From the NCBI GenBank assembly GCA_031271205.1, contig JAISWG010000002.1, positions 1 through 53,064 of the forward strand: a DNA stretch of 53,064 nucleotides. The letters run 5' to 3'. The position numbers were made by a program, and so were the translations under genes. Positions 3,128-51,266 of the stretch are shown here, piece by piece. Position 1 is the stretch's first letter. Each line of letters begins with the position of its first letter. This stretch comes from Endomicrobium sp. Lineage in GTDB: Bacteria; Elusimicrobiota; Endomicrobiia; Endomicrobiales; Endomicrobiaceae. Below the pieces are notes generated by a model. That model was not told where the DNA came from, did not search any database, and saw only the letters and a list, made by a program, of their open reading frames with translations.

Positions 3128-4225
3128 TCAATGCTTTCCATTAGCATCATTTTTTTTATCAAGACTATCATAAATCTTGCAATCTTTTCCAATAAACACA
3201 TTTATATCAGCATAAACACTCGGATTATAAGAAACTATTATCTTCCCTATACCTAAAATCTCAGATATTTTTAATGCCTGTGTAAAATTTCCTTTATAGT
3301 CCTTTATTAAAGTCACATCATATACTGTAGGAAGACTTCCCCAATCCAAAACATCAAATTTATTTGCTCTTAAAAGCCACGCTATTTTTTCAGCCATACG
3401 AGATTTTCTTGAAGCATTTTTTATATCAACCGCGACAACATTCTTCTTATTTATATTTACATCTGCATTGTTATTATAATATATTTTGTCCAAAAACCCT
3501 TTAATATCTTGTTTGTTAGGCTCAATTCGCATTCTTACATATTTTACAGGCATGTCACAAAACATAACTATAGGCACCTGTTTTTTTATTCTAAAAATCA
3601 ATGTAATTAACGATATTTTCGGAATATTTGTATTTACATATTTATAATTTTTTTGAATTTTAAAAAACCTACGAGGGAGTAAATATAAAACTCGCTCTAC
3701 TATTTCTAAATAATTCAACAACTCCAAATCTTTATTTTCAAACTCATTTGAAGCTAATAGAGATTTGATTTTTTTATCGCTATCAAGCATATCGTTAAAC
3801 GTTTTAAAGCTCATATTGATATAAAAATCTGACAAAGCAGCATTGCCTATAACTTCGCGCAAATCCAAATAAAATTTATTTATGGCACTACCTAGACTTT
3901 TTTTTAAATTTTCATAAAATAGGGTTTTTAAACTTTTTGCTCTTTCATTTTTCTTAAAGACAATAGCTTCAGTATTCACACTTAAAACTTTTAATAATTT
4001 GTTTTTAGAGTCATATATAATTTGATATGAATCAAAACGATCTGCAAATGCACCATCTAAATCATATAGCAAAACTGAAAAAGATAAACTGACATTATCT
4101 TTAATTTTTGTAAATACTATATCATGTTTACATATGTAGATATATACCGCAAAAAAAACAGCCAAAAATAAACAACAAACACCAATAATTTTTGTTTTAT
4201 CAGTTCTTTTTAACATTTGAAACAT
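3128..4225 (-). CDS. Membrane-anchored LytR C-terminal-domain protein
   Basis: The 365-residue protein has one N-terminal membrane segment (about residues 12-31, IIGVCCLFLAVFFAVYIYI) and a large extracytoplasmic part. Residues about 265-345 (VAVDIKNASRKSRMAEKIAWLL ... IIVSYNPS) resemble the LytR_C domain that follows LCP domains. The middle section is divergent and I could not confirm an LCP catalytic core. LCP proteins attach glycopolymers to the cell wall. Linkage after nadD and yqeK matches the lytR position in many genomes, which supports the call. The frame overlaps yqeK by 26 bp; a second ATG at 4216 is an equally likely start. Confidence 0.6.
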   Translation of the reverse strand: MFQMLKRTDKTKIIGVCCLFLAVFFAVYIYICKHDIVFTKIKDNVSLSFSVLLYDLDGAFADRFDSYQIIYDSKNKLLKVLSVNTEAIVFKKNERAKSLKTLFYENLKKSLGSAINKFYLDLREVIGNAALSDFYINMSFKTFNDMLDSDKKIKSLLASNEFENKDLELLNYLEIVERVLYLLPRRFFKIQKNYKYVNTNIPKISLITLIFRIKKQVPIVMFCDMPVKYVRMRIEPNKQDIKGFLDKIYYNNNADVNINKKNVVAVDIKNASRKSRMAEKIAWLLRANKFDVLDWGSLPTVYDVTLIKDYKGNFTQALKISEILGIGKIIVSYNPSVYADINVFIGKDCKIYDSLDKKNDANGKH

Positions 4226-4790
4226 ACCAATTCCAAGTGTCTATAGCTTGATGACAAAGCCAACCATTATTGCAAATAACATAGGTTATTTTCTGAATAA
4301 GCACTTCAAAAAAAGCCTTGTTTAAATCTTTTTTTGCCATTTCTCTTAAAGTTCCAGCATGCTTCCATTTTCTATCGTGCGAAATAGAATCTGACACAAA
4401 AATTAAACGCTCCAAAATGCTCATATTTTCCCTGCCAAGTGTATGATTTTTTATAGCCTTTAAAACAGATTCTTCTTTTATTTTAAAATATTCAAACGTA
4501 ATTATTTCTCCTGCAAATGAATGAAGAAGATGTGGAGAATTAACCGATATTTCTTTAAAATACTTAAAGTTTTTTTTACGATTTTTGAAGAACTTTATCA
4601 ATTCTTTGTCTGTCATAGATTTTGCACAATCATGCAAAAGCCCTGCAAGCCATGCCTTTAGAGGATTAATACCATTTTTTTCTGCAAGCGAAACTGCAAG
4701 ATTTGCAACATTGTAAGAGTGTTCTAAGCGCTTGGAAGTTAAATGCGAAGATAAATATTCAAATATCTCTTCATCAATGTTTGTGTTCAT
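4200..4790 (-). CDS. yqeK: HD-domain Ap4A hydrolase YqeK family
   Basis: This 196-residue protein belongs to the YqeK family of HD phosphohydrolases, whose B. subtilis member splits diadenosine tetraphosphate into two ADP. Metal ligands are visible: H in RLEHSYNVA, HD in AGLLHDCAKSM, H in SPHLLHSFAG, and the final D in LIFVSDSIS. Its ATG overlaps the nadD stop in an ATGA arrangement, so the two genes are translationally coupled. The pairing nadD-yqeK is one of the most conserved in bacteria and supports the call. Confidence 0.9.
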   Translation of the reverse strand: MNTNIDEEIFEYLSSHLTSKRLEHSYNVANLAVSLAEKNGINPLKAWLAGLLHDCAKSMTDKELIKFFKNRKKNFKYFKEISVNSPHLLHSFAGEIITFEYFKIKEESVLKAIKNHTLGRENMSILERLIFVSDSISHDRKWKHAGTLREMAKKDLNKAFFEVLIQKITYVICNNGWLCHQAIDTWNWYVSNVKKN

Positions 4791-5368
4791 TTGTACAGTC
4801 TCCGCTTAACAATATAATTATAAACCTTTTTATCTAGAAACAATTCGAATTTTTTAGAATCTTCTTTTATCATTTGTCTTATTTCTGTAGATGAAATATT
4901 TTCAGTTTCATTTTGAACAATTATACATCTATCCAAATATTTTACGTCTTTTTTTATTTTTATGTATGGTCTTTTAACAACTACAAACTTATAACGACTT
5001 GCTAAATAGTCTATATTTTTCCATGTATGTAACTCTAAAAGAGAATCTGAACCTATAATCATATATATTTCATCTCCTGGATACAAACTTTGAAAATAAT
5101 CTAACGTTTGGTATGAATAAATTACTTTCTTTTTTAAAACTTCATACAAACTTATTTCAGTTCGCGGCAAACCTTCTGTGGCAATCTTCAACATTGCAAT
5201 TCTGTCATCAACATTTGCATATTGTTTACTTTTATGCGGAGAGGTATAGGCTATAACAAAAATAACTTTCTTGAAGTTGCATGATAACTCTAACACAAAT
5301 TTTACAAGCTGAATATGCGACCTATGGACAGGATCAAAAGAACCACCAAAAATAGCTATCTTGCTCAT
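4787..5368 (-). CDS. nadD: Nicotinate-nucleotide adenylyltransferase NadD
   Basis: NadD joins nicotinate mononucleotide and ATP to make deamido-NAD, a needed step in NAD synthesis. The 193-residue protein shows the nucleotidyltransferase signature GGSFDPVHRSHIQL at residues 8-21 (HxxH-type motif), SPHKS in the middle, and the C-terminal ISSTEIRQMI. Length is normal. It is the first intact gene of a minus-strand run with yqeK and the LytR-type gene. A hairpin at 5427-5449 lies 60 bp upstream and may end transcription from the dead gene before it. Confidence 0.94.
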   Translation of the reverse strand: MSKIAIFGGSFDPVHRSHIQLVKFVLELSCNFKKVIFVIAYTSPHKSKQYANVDDRIAMLKIATEGLPRTEISLYEVLKKKVIYSYQTLDYFQSLYPGDEIYMIIGSDSLLELHTWKNIDYLASRYKFVVVKRPYIKIKKDVKYLDRCIIVQNETENISSTEIRQMIKEDSKKFELFLDKKVYNYIVKRRLYK

Positions 5369-5384
5369 TTTTATACTTCCTATA

Positions 5385-5801
5385 CACTTTCTCTATATTT
5401 CTTGCTTCTATCCAACCAAGAAAAGAAAGATGTTCCAAAGGAACATCTTGAATATTCGTTCTCTTTCTTGTCTACTTCAACATACAAAAACTGCATATTT
5501 TATTTTATGTTTTTATCCTTAGAAGCAAGAGCTCTTTAAAGCTTTTTATATATTTATATTGCTTTGCCAATATTGCTAGCTCTGTAATATTGGTGTTTAG
5601 AGATTGTATAAATAAACACAAGGATCTTCTACCTCTTTTCTATCCGTATAAGACTTCGTATATTTTACAAATGTTTTGAGAAAAAATTTCCTTTTTTTAA
5701 ACTGTTTTCAAGCATTATATATCTGAATTTGATGTATATTTTTAACAAAACAAAAGCTAAAACTTAAATAAACAGTAAAAAATCAATATAAACTTTCTCA
5801 T
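5385..5801 (-). pseudogene. Decayed gene, probably an exported protein
   Basis: Between rho and nadD the minus strand has a good ribosome site (GAGGAAATAAGT) before ATG 5801, followed by a signal-peptide-like start, MRKFILIFYCLFKF, that hits a stop. Further readable pieces are LAKQYKYIKSFKELLLL and the 38-codon stretch starting MQFLYVEVDKKENEY. Stops and frame changes separate them. The helical, repeat-like middle could be TPR-type, but I cannot name the protein. It is not clearly rpmE, which often follows rho. Confidence 0.4.
5427..5449 (-). terminator. Hairpin, possible terminator before nadD
   Basis: AAGATGTTCC and GGAACATCTT form a perfect 10-bp stem with a 3-base loop. On the minus strand it is followed by the T-rich run TCTTTTCTTGG. 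It lies inside the decayed gene upstream of nadD, so it may end that transcript or attenuate the nadD operon. Confidence 0.4.
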
Positions 5802-5870
5802 ACTTATTTCCTCTAAATATTGGAATGCGAAACACGGTAATTTTTATCATTTCACGTTCAAAATAGCAAT

Positions 5871-5909
5871 AAAAAGCACCGGCAAAAACAATTTTTGCTG
5901 GTGCTTTTT
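5871..5909 (-). terminator. Strong Rho-independent terminator of rho
   Basis: A stem of about 14 bp (AGCACCGGCAAAAA with TTTTTGCTGGTGCT) around CAA is flanked by A5 and T5 runs, so it works in both directions. It starts 30 bp past the rho stop on the minus strand. It is the clearest intrinsic terminator in the window. Confidence 0.85.
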
Positions 5910-5938
5910 AAATTAACATATTATTTTATTCTAAATCT

Positions 5939-7228
5939 TCATAAACCTTCCATGCTTGAAAGTTCCATTTGTTTCAAAAAATCTTTATTAGACTTTGAAT
6001 TTAAAAGTCTTTTTCTTAACTCTTCCATAACTTCTATAGAATTCATCGAATTCATCCATTTTCTGAATATCCACATTTTATTTTTTTCATCTTCATTTAA
6101 AAGAAGCTCTTCTTTTCTAGTACCAGAACGTAAGAGATCTATGGCAGGAAACACTCTTCTGTCAGCAAGCTTTCTGTCAAGATAAATTTCACAATTGCCA
6201 GTACCTTTGAATTCTTCAAATATAACATCATCCATTCGACTACCAGTTTCAACAAGAGCAGTGCCTATTATTGTTAAGCTACCGCCTTCTTCAATATTTC
6301 TTGCTGCACCAAAAAATCTTTTTGGTCTCTGCAAAGCATTTGAATCTAATCCTCCTGAAAGAACTCTCCCACTTGAAGGCATAGCCGTATTATAAGCTCT
6401 AGCAAGCCTAGTAATAGAATCCAAAAGAACAACAACATTTTTACCGTTTTCAACCATCCTTTTGGCTTTTTCTATAACCATCTCAGAAACCTGTATGTGT
6501 CTATCTGATGACTCGTCAAAAGTTGAAGAAATAACCTCGCCCTTTACAGAGCGTTGCATGTCAGTAACTTCTTCGGGTCTCTCATCTATGAGTAACACCA
6601 TAAGTACTATATCTAAATTATTTTCAGTGATTGCATTGGCTATCTTCTGCAATAGTACAGTTTTACCACTTCTTGGGGCAGCATTAACAAGCACTCTTTG
6701 ACCTTTTCCTATAGGTATCAGCATGTCAATAACTCTTGTGGATACTTCTTCTTTTTTTGTTTCAAGAACAATCTTCTCATTAGGATATAAAGGCGTCAAA
6801 TTATCAAATAAAGCTCTATCCCTTATGCCTTCCAAGTTCTCCTGTCCATTAATTGATTTAACTTGAAGCAAAGCGAAATACCTTTCAGATTGAGCTTGTG
6901 GAGGGCGAACATATCCAGCTACAGTATCTCCTTTTCTTAAAGCAAATTTCTTTATTTGAGATGGAGAAATATAAATATCATCCGGTCCTGGCAAATAGTT
7001 ATAATCCTGAGATCTCAAGAATCCAAATCCATCAGGTAAAATTTCTAAAACGCCTTCATCATAAACTAATTTATTCTCTTTTGATTGTGCCTCAAAAATT
7101 TTAGCTATCAATTCCTGTTTTCTTAAACCTGCAACACCATCAAGTTTAAGCTTTTTTGCAGTCTCTATCAGTTCTGCCATTGTTAGTTTAGACAAAACTG
7201 ACATGTTCATAGATTTATCTTTTTCCAT
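5939..7228 (-). CDS. rho: Transcription termination factor Rho
   Basis: Rho is the hexameric RNA-dependent ATPase that releases RNA polymerase from untranslated transcripts. The 429-residue protein has the Rho N-terminal helical domain (about 10-45), the RNA-binding OB fold ([16 protein letters not shown], about 58-125), and an ATPase domain with Walker A APRSGKT near 184-190 and Walker [29 protein letters not shown] carries the secondary RNA-binding Q/R loops. AAGGAGGGAGTTA before ATG 7228 is a near-perfect ribosome site. It stands alone between a strong terminator and coaE. Rho may matter more than usual here, since many dead genes would leave untranslated RNA. Confidence 0.97.
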
Positions 7229-7415
7229 TAACTCCCTCCTTAGAGTTCAAAACACACTACACAGCAAAATTAACTAAAAGAGAATTGTAAAAATTTTAAA
7301 AAATAGCGTAATTGTGAGTATCATTAGTTACCACTGATTTGATTTATTTCGCTTATTATTTTTTTGACTTGTGTAAAAGATATTTAGTACAACAACGATA
7401 CGAAGAATGTTACCA

Positions 7416-8018
7416 TTATTTGAAATTAGATGTCAATAATCCGTATATGTTTTCTATTTTTTTTTTCAGGTCTTTTTTAGAACCTGAATTATCTACTACA
7501 AAATCAGAAAGTTTAGCTTTTTCTTCCATAGGCATTTGCGAAGCTATTCTTTTTTTTATATCGTCATCATTTAAGCCATCGCGAAGCGCCAAACGTTTAA
7601 CTTGAATATCATAAGAAATTTTAATCGTAATAATTTTATCACAAACTTTGTCTAAACCTGTTTCAAAAAGAAGAGGAGCGTTAATAACTATAACTTTTTT
7701 TTCCGAAATTTTTTTTAAAATAATTTCATTTATACGAGAAATTATACGATTGTGAAGAATTTTCTCAACTTTCAACTTAGAGCTAACATCAAAAAAAATT
7801 ATATCAGCAAGCTTTTTCCTGTTTAAAGCTCCTTCTGCAGATAAAATATCATATCCAAAAATCTTAGTAATCTCTTGCAAGGCTGGTTTGCCTTTGCAAG
7901 TAAGCTCTTTTGTAACAGCATCCGCATCTATACAAAATGCACCTAACCCATCAAAATATTTAGCACTTTCGCTTTTGCCAGAAGCAATGCTGCCTGTCAA
8001 ACCTATTATCATATTCAT
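7416..8018 (-). CDS. coaE: Dephospho-CoA kinase CoaE
   Basis: CoaE phosphorylates dephospho-CoA at the ribose 3' position, the last step to coenzyme A. The P-loop GLTGSIASGKS lies at the N-terminus and VVINAPLLFETGL holds the substrate region; 200 residues is normal. The open frame reaches a GTG at 8024, but I choose ATG 8018: the stop of the dead polA tail (TGA 8017-8015) overlaps exactly this ATG, the usual ATGA junction. This shows an ancestral polA-coaE operon. coaE may now depend on transcription running through about 780 bp of polA ruins from the def-fmt-trxA-trxB operon. Confidence 0.93.
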   Translation of the reverse strand: MNMIIGLTGSIASGKSESAKYFDGLGAFCIDADAVTKELTCKGKPALQEITKIFGYDILSAEGALNRKKLADIIFFDVSSKLKVEKILHNRIISRINEIILKKISEKKVIVINAPLLFETGLDKVCDKIITIKISYDIQVKRLALRDGLNDDDIKKRIASQMPMEEKAKLSDFVVDNSGSKKDLKKKIENIYGLLTSNFK

Positions 8019-8108
8019 ATCCACACACTGTCTTCAATTTTAATATCAATAAGCATATAAACGTCTAAATCTAACAACATTTCTATCTTATCTTTTACAA
8101 CTGAGACT

Positions 8109-8155
8109 ATAAGACGCTTCTTTCATTAAGCACTCTCAAAAAAAAAGCGTCTATC
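8109..8155. repeat. Inverted repeat at the polA deletion junction
   Basis: AGACGCTT and AAGCGTCT are exact reverse complements about 30 bp apart. They lie just where the remains of the pre-polymerase region stop and those of the polA C-terminus begin. The pair could mark the deletion endpoint or be an inserted palindromic element. Coordinates are good to a few bases. Confidence 0.45.
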
Positions 8156-8592
8156 TTATTATATCTGCTATTCCATTTTTAAAAAAATTTCAATTAAAAA
8201 TACTCCCATACTAAAAAAAGATTAGCAGATCTTTCCTTTAATTTAGTTTCAAATATTTTGTAAAGAACAAAACTCTATAACTTAAAATAAGCTTACATAT
8301 TTAACAACATAATCAATCGGCAAATCAGTAAAAAATTTTTTATACTATTTTCTGTTAATGTCAAAATAAATATTATTTAGAACAATGCAGTAGCATCTTA
8401 TATATATTCATGCTTTAAATTATATCCGACTTTTTATTGTATTAAAAAAACAAAACAGAGAAAACATTTCCATAAATTCATCTAACGATATTTATATAAA
8501 AGTTAAATCATTGTACCAGGACCAGGAAAACAAAAAAATTTTTATTAAGCTACATAAATATACCGACAATTCTAGATCTCAAATAATCCATG

Positions 8593-8622
8593 TATGCATC
8601 AAACTCTTATGCATCAAACTCT
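8593..8622. repeat. Tandem 15-bp duplication in polA ruins
   Basis: The unit TATGCATCAAACTCT occurs twice in a row (8593-8607 and 8608-8622). It duplicates the codons for the EFDA start of the dead 3'-5' exonuclease domain. It looks like a slippage event after selection was lost. Confidence 0.8.
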
Positions 8623-8795
8623 ATTGTTTTTAAATAAAACTCACTATAATTTTTATAATATCAATAGTTTCTAAATCTTTTACTGTAAATTATATTTCAA
8701 ATCTTAAATCATCTTGCAAAAAAATCATTAAAGTTAAACTTTTTATTTTCAAGGATTCTATTTGTTTTGTTTTATGTCTAACTTTTTTAGAATCT

Positions 8796-9650
8796 TTACT
8801 TTTGACGAAATAATTTGTCCACAAAACTTTTAAGTTCATACTTTTCAAAGAAAGAGATTGCTTTGTCAATATCTAAATCTTTATTTTCAAAATCATTTAA
8901 TTTATAATCCAAAGGAACGTCAAAATTAAGCTCTATCAACTTTTTGCTAAGCTCAACATTATCTTTGCCATGTTGTAATAATTTCCCAATCTTGCCTTTT
9001 ATTGAGCCCACATTTTGCAGTATATTTTTAAGGCTTACGTATTCTTTTAGAAGCTTTACAGCTGTTTTCTCACCAATTCCTTTTACACCAGGAACATTAT
9101 CGGTTGCGTCGCCACTCAAAGCAAAAATATCAAGCAGTTGATTTGGCTTAACACCGTACTTTCGCTCGACTTTTTTTGCATCATACATTATGCCTTTTGA
9201 GTCATTCCAAACCAAGACATTTTCATCTTCGATCAACTGCAATATATCTTTGTCACCAGTTACAATTACAGTTTGAACTGAGTTTTCTTTATTATGCTTC
9301 ACTATTGTTGCTATTAAATCATCCGCCTCATAGCCTTGAATTTCCACTCTATAAATATTCAACGCGTCAACAGCTTTCCTTATCAAAGGCATCTGGCTGA
9401 TAAGAGCTTCATCTAAAGGTTTTCTGTTAGCTTTATATTCTTTAAATATTTCATGTCTAAAATTTTTTGAAGGATAATCAAAACAAACCGCAATATAATC
9501 AGGAGTGAAAATGCTCTTAATTTTAAACAACAATCTTACAAAACCATAAACAGCGTTAATTTGTTGATTATTTGATGTAAATAACGGAGGTAAAGCGTGA
9601 TATGCTCTGTGAATGTACGCATTGCCATCTAAAATAAAAAATTTTTTCAT
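8796..9650 (-). CDS. polA: Stand-alone 5' nuclease (polA N-terminal domain)
   Basis: The 284-residue protein covers only the 5'-3' exonuclease/flap endonuclease domain of DNA polymerase I, which removes RNA primers and flaps. Catalytic acidic motifs are present: LDGNAYIHRAYHAL at the N-terminus, EADDLIATIV, VTGDKDILQLI, and the DNA-binding helix-hairpin GDATDNVPGVKGIGEKTA. Full PolA is about 900 residues; here a stop falls right after the domain and the rest is debris at 8015-8795. Its ATG overlaps the trxB stop (ATGA). A functional flap nuclease without its polymerase is plausible, since the motifs are clean and the frame is open. Another polymerase would then have to fill gaps. Confidence 0.9.
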   Translation of the reverse strand: MKKFFILDGNAYIHRAYHALPPLFTSNNQQINAVYGFVRLLFKIKSIFTPDYIAVCFDYPSKNFRHEIFKEYKANRKPLDEALISQMPLIRKAVDALNIYRVEIQGYEADDLIATIVKHNKENSVQTVIVTGDKDILQLIEDENVLVWNDSKGIMYDAKKVERKYGVKPNQLLDIFALSGDATDNVPGVKGIGEKTAVKLLKEYVSLKNILQNVGSIKGKIGKLLQHGKDNVELSKKLIELNFDVPLDYKLNDFENKDLDIDKAISFFEKYELKSFVDKLFRQK

Positions 9651-10555
9651 ATGTTGTTTATATAATTTTCAGCACTGACCGCCGCTTGAGCACCATCTGA
9701 AACCGCCGTAACAACTTGTCTAAGATGTTTTTGTCTTATGTCCCCACAAGCAAAAATTCCATCATTGGAAGCACGCATGTCTTCATCAGTTATAATGCAC
9801 CCTTGTTCATCAAAAGTTATTCCAGTAACAACCAAGCTGTTTGGAACAAATCCTATAAACACAAAAATTCCATCAACTTTTAAATATTTATCATGATTTG
9901 TTTCTAAATCTGTTACAATTATTTTTTCTATGTGCTTTTCGCCAATAATTTCCTTTGGAACCGTATTATACATAACAGATATATTTCGACAAGATATCAT
10001 TCTTTCCTGCAAAGTCTTTGTCGCTTTTAGTTTATTTCTTCTATGTAAAATGGTAACTTTTTTTGCAAATTTCGCTAAATATATAGACTCCTGTATCGCA
10101 GAGTCACCTCCACCTACAACCAAAACTTCTTTCTCCCTGTAAAAAGGAGCGTCGCAGATTGCACAAAAAGATACACCTCTACCCATAAATTTAGCTTCAC
10201 CGGGAATGTTCATTTCTTTTATGCGGGTCCCCACAGCTATAATAACAGTTTTTGATTCATAAACAGAATTTACAGTTACAACTTTTTTTACGGAGCCATT
10301 TTTAACTTCCGTAACTTCATCATAAACTATTTTCGTACCAAGATCTCTTACTTGGGTTTCAAGTTTAACAGCTAAATCAAAACCATTGACGCCTCCGTTA
10401 AATCCAGGATAATTTTCAAGCAAATCAGTTGCAGTTATTTGACCACCACAACCATTCTTCTCTATAAGTAATGTCTTAAGCATGGCTCTTGATGAATAAA
10501 TTGCAGCAGACAACCCTGCCGGACCTCCACCAACTATTACAACATCATATACCAT
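9647..10555 (-). CDS. trxB: Thioredoxin reductase TrxB
   Basis: TrxB reduces thioredoxin with NADPH through FAD and a redox disulfide. The 302-residue protein has an FAD-binding GGGPAGLSAAIYSSRA at the N-terminus, the redox pair C131-A-I-C134 in VSFCAICDAP, the NADPH-binding VVGGGDSAIQES at about 146-157, and the closing FAD motif GIFACGDIRQKHLRQ. It follows trxA by 19 bp and is coupled to the polA fragment through an ATGA overlap. Confidence 0.96.
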   Translation of the reverse strand: MVYDVVIVGGGPAGLSAAIYSSRAMLKTLLIEKNGCGGQITATDLLENYPGFNGGVNGFDLAVKLETQVRDLGTKIVYDEVTEVKNGSVKKVVTVNSVYESKTVIIAVGTRIKEMNIPGEAKFMGRGVSFCAICDAPFYREKEVLVVGGGDSAIQESIYLAKFAKKVTILHRRNKLKATKTLQERMISCRNISVMYNTVPKEIIGEKHIEKIIVTDLETNHDKYLKVDGIFVFIGFVPNSLVVTGITFDEQGCIITDEDMRASNDGIFACGDIRQKHLRQVVTAVSDGAQAAVSAENYINNI

Positions 10556-46673: not shown

Positions 46674-49600
46674 TATAAACCTAAAAACATAATCACCAAT
46701 AATGAGATACCTATTTATAAATTGTTAAATTTTAATGTGATAACCAAGCTTTTTAACATTCTATGTAATTTTGTTATATCATAATTGTTAAGAAACTTCA
46801 ACGGTCAAAATTGTAATGCCTATCTTTTAATACCTATTCAACTCTGTGTTATCGTTGAGCGTTTTCATAGACTTCTCAACTTCCATTTGTGTTTGTGTTA
46901 TCCAAAGTTCTTGCACTAACCTAACAGAAAAAAACAAATCAAACTCAGAATTTATAAACTAAACACCCCCTCTTCCGCAATTATTATTCTACTATTGTTT
47001 GATCATGGCTCAATATTATGCCTAAAAACAGCATATATAAATGTGAAAAGGTCTAAATAAATAATTAAAGAAAAACAATAAGAGGTAAATGAATATTGCT
47101 AGAGATAATGAAAATTAAATCTGATCCTCATTTGGTGATAATTTTTTGTAATTTATATTTACCTTTGAATATATTTTTATCTAAAACTACAATAAAACAT
47201 TTAAAAGATAGAAGAAAACTGGACTAAGACTAATTTTTCCCAAGCGTTTAGTAGATATCTGACGATACATCTCTTATAAAAGTTTCATAAAGTTACTGTT
47301 TCTGATTTTTCAGTTAAATAGAGTTAGATGTTTTGTATTTCTCTCTTATTCACTTATTTGCAACTACATTAAAATTGGTTCTTACTAATTTAAGTTGTAA
47401 CTGATTCAAATGTAGTGGTCCAAAATTTGCACTTAATGTATAAAAGAAAACAATAGTAGTCATTCTGTCTTTGTCAAGCAGTCCTGTGTGAAATGTGACA
47501 TGGAATAGGCTCAAGACTTGTAATTTTCAAATTTAACTCTCTAAGCTATTTTTAAAAAAAATCTTCAATACATTGCTTCTTAGGTTGACTCAAAAAGCCA
47601 CTTTTTTCTTTTAAATAAAAATATTGTACTCAGAATATGCGTTTATTATTTTTTTCTATACGATATTTATACAGACGTTTGAATTGATTAACTTCTTATT
47701 CCAGATTTTAGCTCTATTTTTCATGATATAAACTATATTTATCATTTTTGCCACTAAAACATCGTAGTCGTCTTTTAATATTTCTTAAAATTACTCAAAT
47801 ATTTGAAAATATCTTCAACGTAACTCTTTAGAACACATTTCACTTGTCATCTAAACAACGGCCCATATTAAGTTAGTGTTTCTTCTTTCAAAAATCAAAT
47901 AAATCATATAGACATAAGCATGTTTGTTCGTGAATAATATATATGGGCAGCGAGAACTTAAGAATATGCCTGAAATATTTTATTCTTGAAAACTTTATCA
48001 AAAGTTTTATGTTTTTGAAAGTTCAAACTCAATATTTATAGTTCTGTTGTCTCCAGTTAAGCAATGCCGGTGTGTATCTATCTTTAGTTTTTCAAAATTT
48101 TTTAATATTTTTTGGTATCTTTTAAATACAAACACCACCTTATAATTTGAGAACATAGGTTTACAGATTTTGTCATTCTGGAAACAATGAATAAAACAGT
48201 TTTAACACTGGGTTTTACAAGCGTTGTATTGCGCTAAGAGCCCCGTATGCGTAGTTTGCTCTATAACACACCAAGCGCATTGTGAGAACTAAGTAATTAA
48301 AGCAATCGTTTCTTTATATTTTTATCTTTAACTTTTTTGATTTCGTTAAAAACAAAATCTACTCATCTCGTATATTTTTAATATACACTTCTTAAAAATG
48401 TTTTTAGAATTTTTCTTATATAAATTTTTACTTTATATTTAGATTTAGAAACGGGAAAACATTCATCATTGAATTTTTTAATTTCCCTATAAGAATATCT
48501 TCAAAACATACGATTTTAATAGTATTGTTTTAACGTATAATTTAATTGTTTTTATCTTATTTGTTATTCTAAATTTTTAACATCATATTCTCATCGTTAA
48601 TCTTGCAATTTGAAATAAAAGAATTAAAACGACGTGACACGTCTTACGTCTAATATTGTGTATATATCCAAGTTCGTTTGCTTGTGCTAACGTGTCATTC
48701 CACTGTTACAAAAATGTTTAATACAATTTGTTTTTATTAAAAGCTTTTCAATTTTAAACGTGTGTCAGAGCCCCATGACTATCCAAAAATACTCAACAAA
48801 TTGCGGTATAAACATGCCTTTATATGGACAAAGTTTGTAAGCGTGTTTAGTTGTATTATTAGTTGTTTTATTTAAATTATCAAAGGATAATTTCTCAAAT
48901 TTAAACCTTTCTTAATTTTTCTCTTTAAACAGTTTTTCTTGAATTATTTATGCCCATCGTATGTAAAAAGTAATACTCGTTCTATGTGTTTAAATGCATT
49001 TATTTACAGTTTATATTAACATCATAGAAATAAATGTTTATCGTAGCAAACAAATCAACAAAGAAGTCCTTATAATCAACTTTCACGAAAATATCTTTAT
49101 ACTGTAAACTTGTCTGATTTAAACGTTACCAGTGTAATTCATATTTATTGTCAAATACGCTACATACCATAAATCGTTCCAAGACAAAATTTATATTTCA
49201 TTGTTAATAGTATATTATAGAAGGACACCATTATTTTTTTCTATTGCATACACATTAAAATTGCAAGACGTTCTGTTGAAAAACTTACCTACTCTTAAAT
49301 TTGTTTCTGCTCTTTCTTTATTTCCTAGTTTAAGCTATACAATAGCACTCTAATTTCAAAACAGTTGTGCTTAAACATTATTAACTTTCTTAACAATTTT
49401 AATTCCTTTTTCATCTTTCATCGCCATATTTTCTAATTATCTTTTTTCTAAATTTTATTCTTTTCCTATTTTTTTAAATTTTCTTTTTATGCCTTTTTAA
49501 TGGTATTCTGTTGCTTTTTGATATCTTTTTTAAAGATAGCAGTTTAGGATTTCTAAATCTATTAATCCAATTATCAAATAACCGCTGACTAATTTCTAAC

Positions 49601-51182
49601 TTATTTACTTGGAAACACAATGCTTTAAATCTTTTGGTTGTAATAATATTTTTCGGAACTGATATTTTTACATTTAAAACTAGTTTGCAAACACAGCATA
49701 GCAATAAATATTATATATAACTATTTTTTTGTTCCTGCTTATTATATAGCAACATCGCATTTTTTTGCGCAAAAATTATAAAAAAGACAAATGTAAGGGC
49801 AAACACGTATGAAAGCATGTAAAATCACAGAATGATAAAATAATGTAAAGTCTACTTTGACAAAGACATTTATAATTAAGCAAGTAAAAATCGCTTCGAA
49901 ATTTGTACAAAACACCTTATATAACAATGAATATGTTTGATTAAGAGCTTGATAAGAAAAAAATTAGATAATGCAAAAGCTTTTAATTTATGCATATGCT
50001 CAAGACAACTCTGATGAATAAGAAAATACATGTTAAACTGTATTTTCTTAAAAGCTGGATATATGTTGTTAAACCTTATTTTGTAGCTGGCTTAAAACAT
50101 CAACTCTTATTTATAGAAGCCCCATATAAAGACATGCTAATAGTTTTGTGAAGGTTAAGGTTCTAGTATGATTTATATACTACTATGATTATACTACAAT
50201 AATAAGACTATCTAATTATATAATTAAGGATTTAAATTATTTTTTATTGTAAGGCACAATAGGGGGATGGATGTGCACACTATCCAAAGGCAGTTTATGT
50301 ACTTGTTAGGAATATAGTTTTTGTCTAAATCTGCTAGAGTATACTTCTAGAAACAAGCGTAAATATAGTTTTTACTTCCGTTTTATATTTATACAACTTT
50401 CCAAGAAATATTCATTGTACATTAAAAAAACTGCAAAAATATTTAATTTGGGGAATTACCATATAAAAATTATTTGTTTTAATGAGAAACTTATCTAAAT
50501 GCTTATAATAACTACAAGAAAAAAGAAAAAAAGCTACTTCCTCAAAAACTGTAGATTCTATTTTTGCAAACTCTAACAATTTTTCAAGAGAGCTCTGATT
50601 CCAAGTACAGAGTAGTATTTTGAGACCGTCAAAAAAAACAGTACTGTCCATGAAGATCTCTTGTAACTTCAGTACCTAATTTATTGTGTACAGCTTCAAC
50701 AAAAAGTATTTTAATCTAATTTTCTTCAAAATTTAAAATAATCTTTTACTATAGGCTTGACATCAAAATAAATAGGTGTTACAGACTTTACTGTATTTAT
50801 TATTTTATTATAATATTTTAATATAAAAACTCTTCTATAACAGCCACTGGTACTGTTATGATATCCAAAAAAAACATCAAAACTTCTTAATCAACCGTAA
50901 GATTCTCAATAGAATAGCTTAAGTTTTTCTCTTCTCAATATGTATTTTAAATTTGCGGATAAGACAAAATCTCTCTTACAACGAGCAAGTTATTCTCATT
51001 TACTAAGCAACATAGTAATTTTAAGTTCTACTAAGTTTAAAATAAACCGACTAAACTTCATAAATATCTAGAAAACACAAAACTGCCAAGAAAATTCACA
51101 GACTTATCGACTGGATAATAATTAAATTAACTGCTTATGTATCTTATCCAGTTTTATACTTAAATTTAATATTTTTCAATTT
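46674..51182. other. 4.5-kb gene desert
   Basis: No intact gene. Minus-strand frames that might be fragments are 49704-49474 (76 codons, with FDNWINRFRNPKLLSLKKIS) and 50651-50412 (79 codons, with FFDGLKILLCTWNQSSLEKL). An in-frame piece upstream of the second is VEAVHNKLGTEVTRDLHGQ at about 50700-50645, and LKITSLEPIPCHISHRTA lies near 47525-47470. None could be assigned. A 12-bp perfect inverted repeat lies at 50019-50030/50039-50050, and a 9-bp one with a 25-base loop (ACTGGATAA/TTATCCAGT) at 51110-51152. No IS ends, tRNA or CRISPR were seen. Confidence 0.4.
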
Positions 51183-51211
51183 TTGATAAATTTCTCATAA
51201 TGTCGTATTAT
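51183..51211 (+). promoter_or_regulatory. Sigma70 promoter of the antiporter gene
   Basis: TTGATA (51183-51188), 17 bp and TATTAT (51206-51211), each one mismatch from consensus. Start near 51218 gives a leader of about 50 bases before ATG 51267. Confidence 0.65.
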
Positions 51212-51266
51212 TTTATACATAATTCACATATCACATTTTTGTTCAATTTTTTTAGGTGGAATACAA

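Follow-up and report, generated by a model that had tools for sequence, protein, structure and literature searches.

A polA locus in Endomicrobium apparently reduced to its 5' nuclease, with the discarded half in decay

Reduction of DNA polymerase I (PolA) to its 5' nuclease is an outcome already known in endosymbionts. Of 81 proteobacterial endosymbionts, 23 are reported to show it, 16 of 18 Buchnera among them (PMC6403173). The PolA.1-only genes of Buchnera aphidicola encode a 5' nuclease of ~290 aa in a reduced endosymbiont (PMC6403173), as does the Endomicrobium locus described here; the latter differs in belonging to another phylum (Elusimicrobiota), in the lost half being still readable and in the several stages of decay present in one genus. 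In Cardinium, parts of polA that encode the polymerase and the 3'-5' exonuclease were lost, it seems on several independent occasions (PMC12842512). Such repeated loss inside one symbiont genus again resembles Endomicrobium; the hosts of Cardinium, however, are nematodes and other invertebrates, and ruins, selection tests or neighbourhood comparisons were not noticed in that work.

Stand-alone 5' nucleases of the same superfamily also exist as discrete FENs, such as FenA/YpcP of B. subtilis and Xni/ExoIX of E. coli, for which a role in Okazaki maturation beside a separate polymerase has been proposed (PMC10191290, PMC13082043). They form separate families and usually occur beside an intact PolA, whereas the Endomicrobium nuclease is PolA's own N-terminus. 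Its direct orthologues, at the same locus and 90% identical in the nuclease domain, are the intact PolA of the congeners G043 and G023; unlike it, they have 909 aa and a full polymerase domain.

As far as the literature that we found shows, Elusimicrobiota is a new phylum for this outcome. The decay series of Endomicrobia seems not to have been reported before in the literature accessible to us, and its record of intermediate steps is unusually complete. A 2024 survey of Endomicrobia describes no notable difference in replication and repair genes between free-living and endosymbiotic members (PMC11257099); its main text does not speak of polA, and the survey may have missed the domain loss.

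The window, that is, the whole stretch of 53,064 nucleotides analysed, is placed in contig C14 of G000, a 53.5% complete Endomicrobium/Endomicrobiellum MAG (Elusimicrobiota) of 609,713 bases in 29 contigs. The nearest relatives with a name, Endomicrobium / 'Candidatus Endomicrobiellum' MAGs, belong to a lineage that lives as endosymbionts in termite-gut flagellates. Along the locus, the order is trxB - nuclease - ruin - coaE - rho, where the ruin (8015-8812) is the decayed remainder of polA, collinear with and 75-77% identical to the gene of a relative. The features are as follows.

9647..10555, minus strand: trxB, thioredoxin reductase, upstream of the nuclease (TIGR01292, 5e-109; synteny)
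8796..9650, minus strand: 5' nuclease (flap nuclease), the PolA N-terminal domain, 284 aa (PF02739/PF01367; PolA models TIGR00593/PRK05755)
8809..8815, minus strand: +1 T frameshift after nuclease residue 279 (alignment with intact polA of G043, G023 and G005)
8356..8812, minus strand: ruin of PolA residues ~280-424, broken by frameshifts and stops and covering the linker and the beginning of the vestigial 3'-5' exonuclease domain (77% nucleotide identity to G043 polA nt 796-1276, a match that takes in the last ~45 nt of the nuclease)
8116..8355, minus strand: ruin of PolA residues ~457-540, the remaining exonuclease domain beyond a 96-bp deletion (75% nucleotide identity to G043 polA nt 1370-1679)
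8112..8120, minus strand, place approximate: junction left by a ~0.99-kb deletion in which the polymerase fingers/palm, PolA residues ~540-871, were lost (alignments)
8015..8115, minus strand: decayed remnant of the PolA C-terminus, its last ~39 residues (77% nucleotide identity to G043 polA nt 2581-2775, a match that takes in the coaE start)
7416..8018, minus strand: coaE, dephospho-CoA kinase, the downstream neighbour that fixes the old end of polA (PF01121, 1e-52)
5939..7228, minus strand: rho, next in the conserved trxB-polA-coaE-rho neighbourhood (TIGR00767, 3e-199; synteny)

The nuclease ORF matches PF02739 (2e-54) and PF01367 (6e-30) and aligns to columns 1-283 of the PolA model, which has 889. 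At its start, the ATG overlaps the stop of trxB, and its end falls at the border where intact PolA enters the exonuclease domain. A preliminary description of this DNA had called the frame clean and terminated at the domain border, and indeed it shows no indel against intact PolA. The +1 T frameshift stops it 5 residues on (LFRQK-stop). The closest solved structures are those of Taq polymerase and of a further DNA polymerase I, entry 6vde. The nine acidic active-site positions are all kept in G000 and are unchanged in 11 of 11 genes (ten nuclease-only genomes and the split gene of G002); in E. coli numbering, we take these to be D13, D63, E113, D115, D116, D138, D140, D185 and D188.

With a bifunctional DNA polymerase I, the gene shares the 5' nuclease domain with its metal-binding acidic residues; the family-A polymerase domain, PF00476, has 0 matches in the 53.5% complete genome. 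Its 284 aa, its position at the polA locus by synteny, its lack of a polymerase domain, its orthology to PolA and the signs of purifying selection on it (dN/dS, indels, codon-position pattern) are those of a PolA.1-only remnant. To label such nuclease-only genes 'DNA polymerase I' is a wrong annotation, and the same misannotation has been pointed out earlier in Buchnera (PMC6403173).

The ruin was aligned to the intact polA of G043 (909 aa). Its three blocks, in gene order, extend over 513, 314 and 197 positions with E-values of 2e-102, 5e-53 and 1e-33, the last running into coaE. At the protein level, tblastn with G043 PolA finds the exonuclease region (2e-24) and the C-terminus (4e-7), interrupted by stops and frame changes. 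The lesions comprise ~33 indels, many stops and two large deletions: one of 96 bp, corresponding to PolA residues 424-456 in the exonuclease part, and one of ~0.99 kb, about residues 540-871, which the global aligner split into three blocks through chance matches.

Most of what the preliminary description had read in this region stands. The ordered, broken exonuclease pieces that it saw behind the nuclease correspond to the collinear matches, similarity to PolA across 8015-8795 is strong (E down to 2e-102), and the former polA stop, TGA (8017-8015), overlaps the coaE ATG (8018-8016). The surviving C-terminus was slightly under-counted at ~27 residues; the alignment gives ~39 (PolA 871-909). 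The ~1.1 kb said to be missing from the polymerase centre is right for both deletions together (~1.09 kb) and too large for the centre alone. An Rfam scan of 7300-9700 found no RNA.

The vestigial state of the exonuclease domain seems to extend to intact genes. The matches of G043 PolA to PF22619 and PF01612, families of 3'-5' exonucleases, are weak, and, judged by eye, the usual acidic motif of catalysis is apparently missing where the genus still has an intact PolA (for instance, G043 residues 330-490). Proofreading may have been lost earlier than the polymerase in this genus.

The nuclease is under purifying selection, and the remainder of the gene decays neutrally. Against G043, the nuclease has 0 gaps in 840 nt and the ruin has 33 in 748 aligned nt. 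On the G000 branch, substitutions fall on codon positions 1:2:3 as 11:9:26 in the nuclease and as 24:39:22 in the ruin, which is without codon-position bias; the two sets of counts differ with a Fisher p of 7e-4, in a test picked after the counts were known. Pairwise dN/dS between G000 and G043, a measure that includes pre-loss time, is 0.132 for the nuclease and 0.124 for dnaE, so that the selection check proposed in the preliminary description also comes out in favour of its reading (0.13, like dnaE). Because the pairwise ratio covers that earlier period, the indel and codon-position contrasts within one gene weigh more. The G000 branch is somewhat accelerated in both nuclease and dnaE. Altogether, homology, lesions and purifying selection agree with the proposal that PolA was here turned into a stand-alone flap nuclease, as far as can be read from sequence.

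We searched 42 genomes of the genus for the domains and read the polA locus in each. The 5' nuclease domain occurs in 41 of 42 and a DNA_pol_A match in 31 of 42, among them G007, where it consists of broken pieces with stops only. G003 (34% complete) has neither domain. Ten genomes are nuclease-only (G000, G007, G008, G011, G017, G021, G047, G050, G051 and G053), with genes of 281-302 aa, all at the trxB-nuc-coaE-rho locus. In another, G002 (L100, G002:C27, oriented polA 3418-6156), one in-frame TAA divides PolA in two, a nuclease of 288 aa and an open frame of 623 aa in which the polymerase domain is intact; ahead of an internal ATG stands a possible ribosome site, GGAG. The split could be a real fission or else a single-base error. 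In the other 30 genomes, PolA is either full-length (898-960 aa) or truncated at the end of a contig, as in G054, whose contig ends inside polA. In most full-length cases the polA stop overlaps coaE, and the order around coaE is common to congeners whose contigs are long enough to include it.

The spacer between nuclease and coaE measures 1265 bp in G007, 771 in G000, 527 in G011, 482 in G053, 300 in G008, 225 in G047 and 132 in G021; there is none in G017, G050 and G051. A polymerase ruin was found in place in G000, G007 and G011, with lesions in the latter two that differ from those of G000; the spacers of G047 and G008 yielded no readable polA ruin. Beyond the genus, full-length frames are kept in the family's other genera wherever the contig seems long enough. 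In another family of the order, the genome of G027 (1.8 Mb, 99% complete, not strongly reduced) carries a PolA-type nuclease-only gene in the same neighbourhood (L184 6427-7485, G027:C8); this gene overlaps coaE, and the genome gave no DNA_pol_A match.

Trees of nuclease, CoaE, TrxB, Rho and DnaE were built with FastTree and, in a quick version, with treekit. RpoB was left out as a marker, having a match in 21 of 42 genomes; its domain, PF00562, went unmatched even in some genomes rated more than 90% complete (G043, G014). The nuclease-only genomes fall in separate places: G000 with G011; G007; G047 with G008; and a deep, long-branched set of G021, G053, G017, G050 and G051. For groups named after the trees were seen, the AU test rejected a single group of all ten (p 1.9e-43) and a group of G000, G011 and G007 (4e-57); the union of G047 and G008 with the deep set, which involves long branches, was rejected weakly (p 0.024). 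G000 and G011 stood apart in the first four-gene trees and became sisters once dnaE was added (0.997; 99 in the second tree). They have no common lesion, and their losses may go back to a single event or to two.

A polymerase domain once lost is not expected to return. Because the tree positions are separate and regain is unlikely, there were at least three separate conversions in the genus, apart from the G002 split, and probably four or more. The series starts with G002, both halves open, and passes through the long ruins of G007 and G000 and the short ruin of G011; it ends with the short spacers of G053, G008, G047 and G021 and with G051, G050 and G017, where the ruin is erased and the nuclease again overlaps coaE. 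With the discarded half preserved at different stages, one can follow directly in which order and when domains were lost; finished cases offer no such view. Whether loss of the Pol I polymerase with the flap nuclease kept is a repeatable process, directional in this order, that leaves DnaE as lagging-strand gap-filler is a question on which we find the case evenly balanced; on the same reading, the series would be a staged record of domain-level gene reduction.

One challenge to selective retention is that the entire locus is a dying pseudogene, whose nuclease frame is merely the part still unhit. Genes do erode across the genus, and the acceleration of the G000 branch would suit such a process. 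Yet this is very improbable: the gap-free nuclease adjoins a ruin with 33 gaps, its dN/dS equals that of dnaE, it alone retains the excess of third-position changes, and it is intact in 10 of 10 nuclease-only genomes, even where the ruin is fully erased. An assembly or sequencing artefact is scarcely credible. MAG data are involved and a lone homopolymer indel is a common error, but about 33 indels, ~1.1 kb of deletions and many stops are not of this kind, and other lesions occur in the related MAG G011 and in G007. Nor do we see any real prospect for a discrete FEN (YpcP/FenA or Xni type) acquired separately and lodged next to a dead polA. Discrete FENs are common in bacteria (PMC10191290), but this nuclease sits at the N-terminal position of the same gene and is 90% identical (90.8% for G043) to the N-termini of intact congener PolA. 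It scores 323 bits with PolA models, as a partial match to a model with a cut-off of 720, against 238 bits with the 5'-3' exonuclease/discrete FEN model (PRK14976.1-4; cut-off 305) and 173 with Xni (cut-off 261), both below threshold.

It is also unlikely that polA was split rather than halved, with a Klenow-like polymerase gene surviving in the unassembled half of the genome. G002 would exemplify such a split, and taken by itself a relocated polymerase gene in G000 is possible, because the MAG is just 53.5% complete; the search for another polA found no DNA_pol_A elsewhere in what is assembled. However, with ruins in place in G000, G007 and G011, a second copy would need an earlier duplication. 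Moreover, six nuclease-only congeners, 75-85% complete, contain no intact DNA_pol_A: none was found in G011, G017, G047, G051 and G053, and G007 shows the ruin only.

We return to selective retention, and consider it likely that in the polA of this intracellular symbiont the polymerase and the vestigial exonuclease were dispensable, with the flap nuclease kept as a separate protein and lagging-strand maturation carried out by two proteins. The polymerase and 3'-5' exonuclease domains would have become dispensable and broken, and would now be in the course of deletion, selection having retained the 5' flap nuclease as a protein of its own. Maturation would then be a two-protein reaction, in which the nuclease takes off RNA primers and displaced flaps and the replicative polymerase DnaE fills the gap, before ligase seals. 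The excision-repair synthesis of Pol I may have been abandoned or passed to DnaE.

G000 has a single intact, full-length DnaE gene (1183 aa), and DnaE is present in 41 of 42 genomes. Work on enzymes from another phylum than Endomicrobium provides the analogy. B. subtilis without Pol I is near normal; its purified DnaE performs strand displacement on Okazaki substrates, the resulting flap is a FEN substrate, and DnaE with a discrete FEN can mature Okazaki fragments in vitro without Pol I (PMC13082043, preprint). H. influenzae and S. pneumoniae, without a discrete FEN, require the 5' nuclease of Pol I (as cited in PMC10191290). Because of these results combined, the most likely route in Endomicrobium is that the retained nuclease still clears primers and flaps with DnaE filling the gaps. 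This predicts that DnaE and a PolA-derived flap nuclease would be enough for Okazaki maturation. The 5' nuclease, repeatedly kept while the polymerase is discarded, appears as the PolA activity hardest to give up.

Several minor observations accompany the survey. RNase HII (rnhB) is missing behind rplS in G000 (G000:C21; L175 7970-8388) and is a ruin in G011 (G011:C7; L176 10717-10911); it is absent in 9 of 10 nuclease-only genomes and in 2 of 31 others. We considered its loss as a functional link to polymerase loss and dropped the idea: G007 and G027 keep RNase HII without the polymerase, the genomes compared are not independent data points, and the two that lack it outside the nuclease-only set are incomplete. 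In the window, 46674-51266 is a stretch of 4.6 kb without an ORF of at least 80 aa or an Rfam match, probably further gene ruins. Finally, one contig of the genome G019 (G019:C51, about 69800-137700) combines additional DNA_pol_A pieces with a 5' nuclease, an RNase H and an RpoB-like domain, which suggests a large phage.
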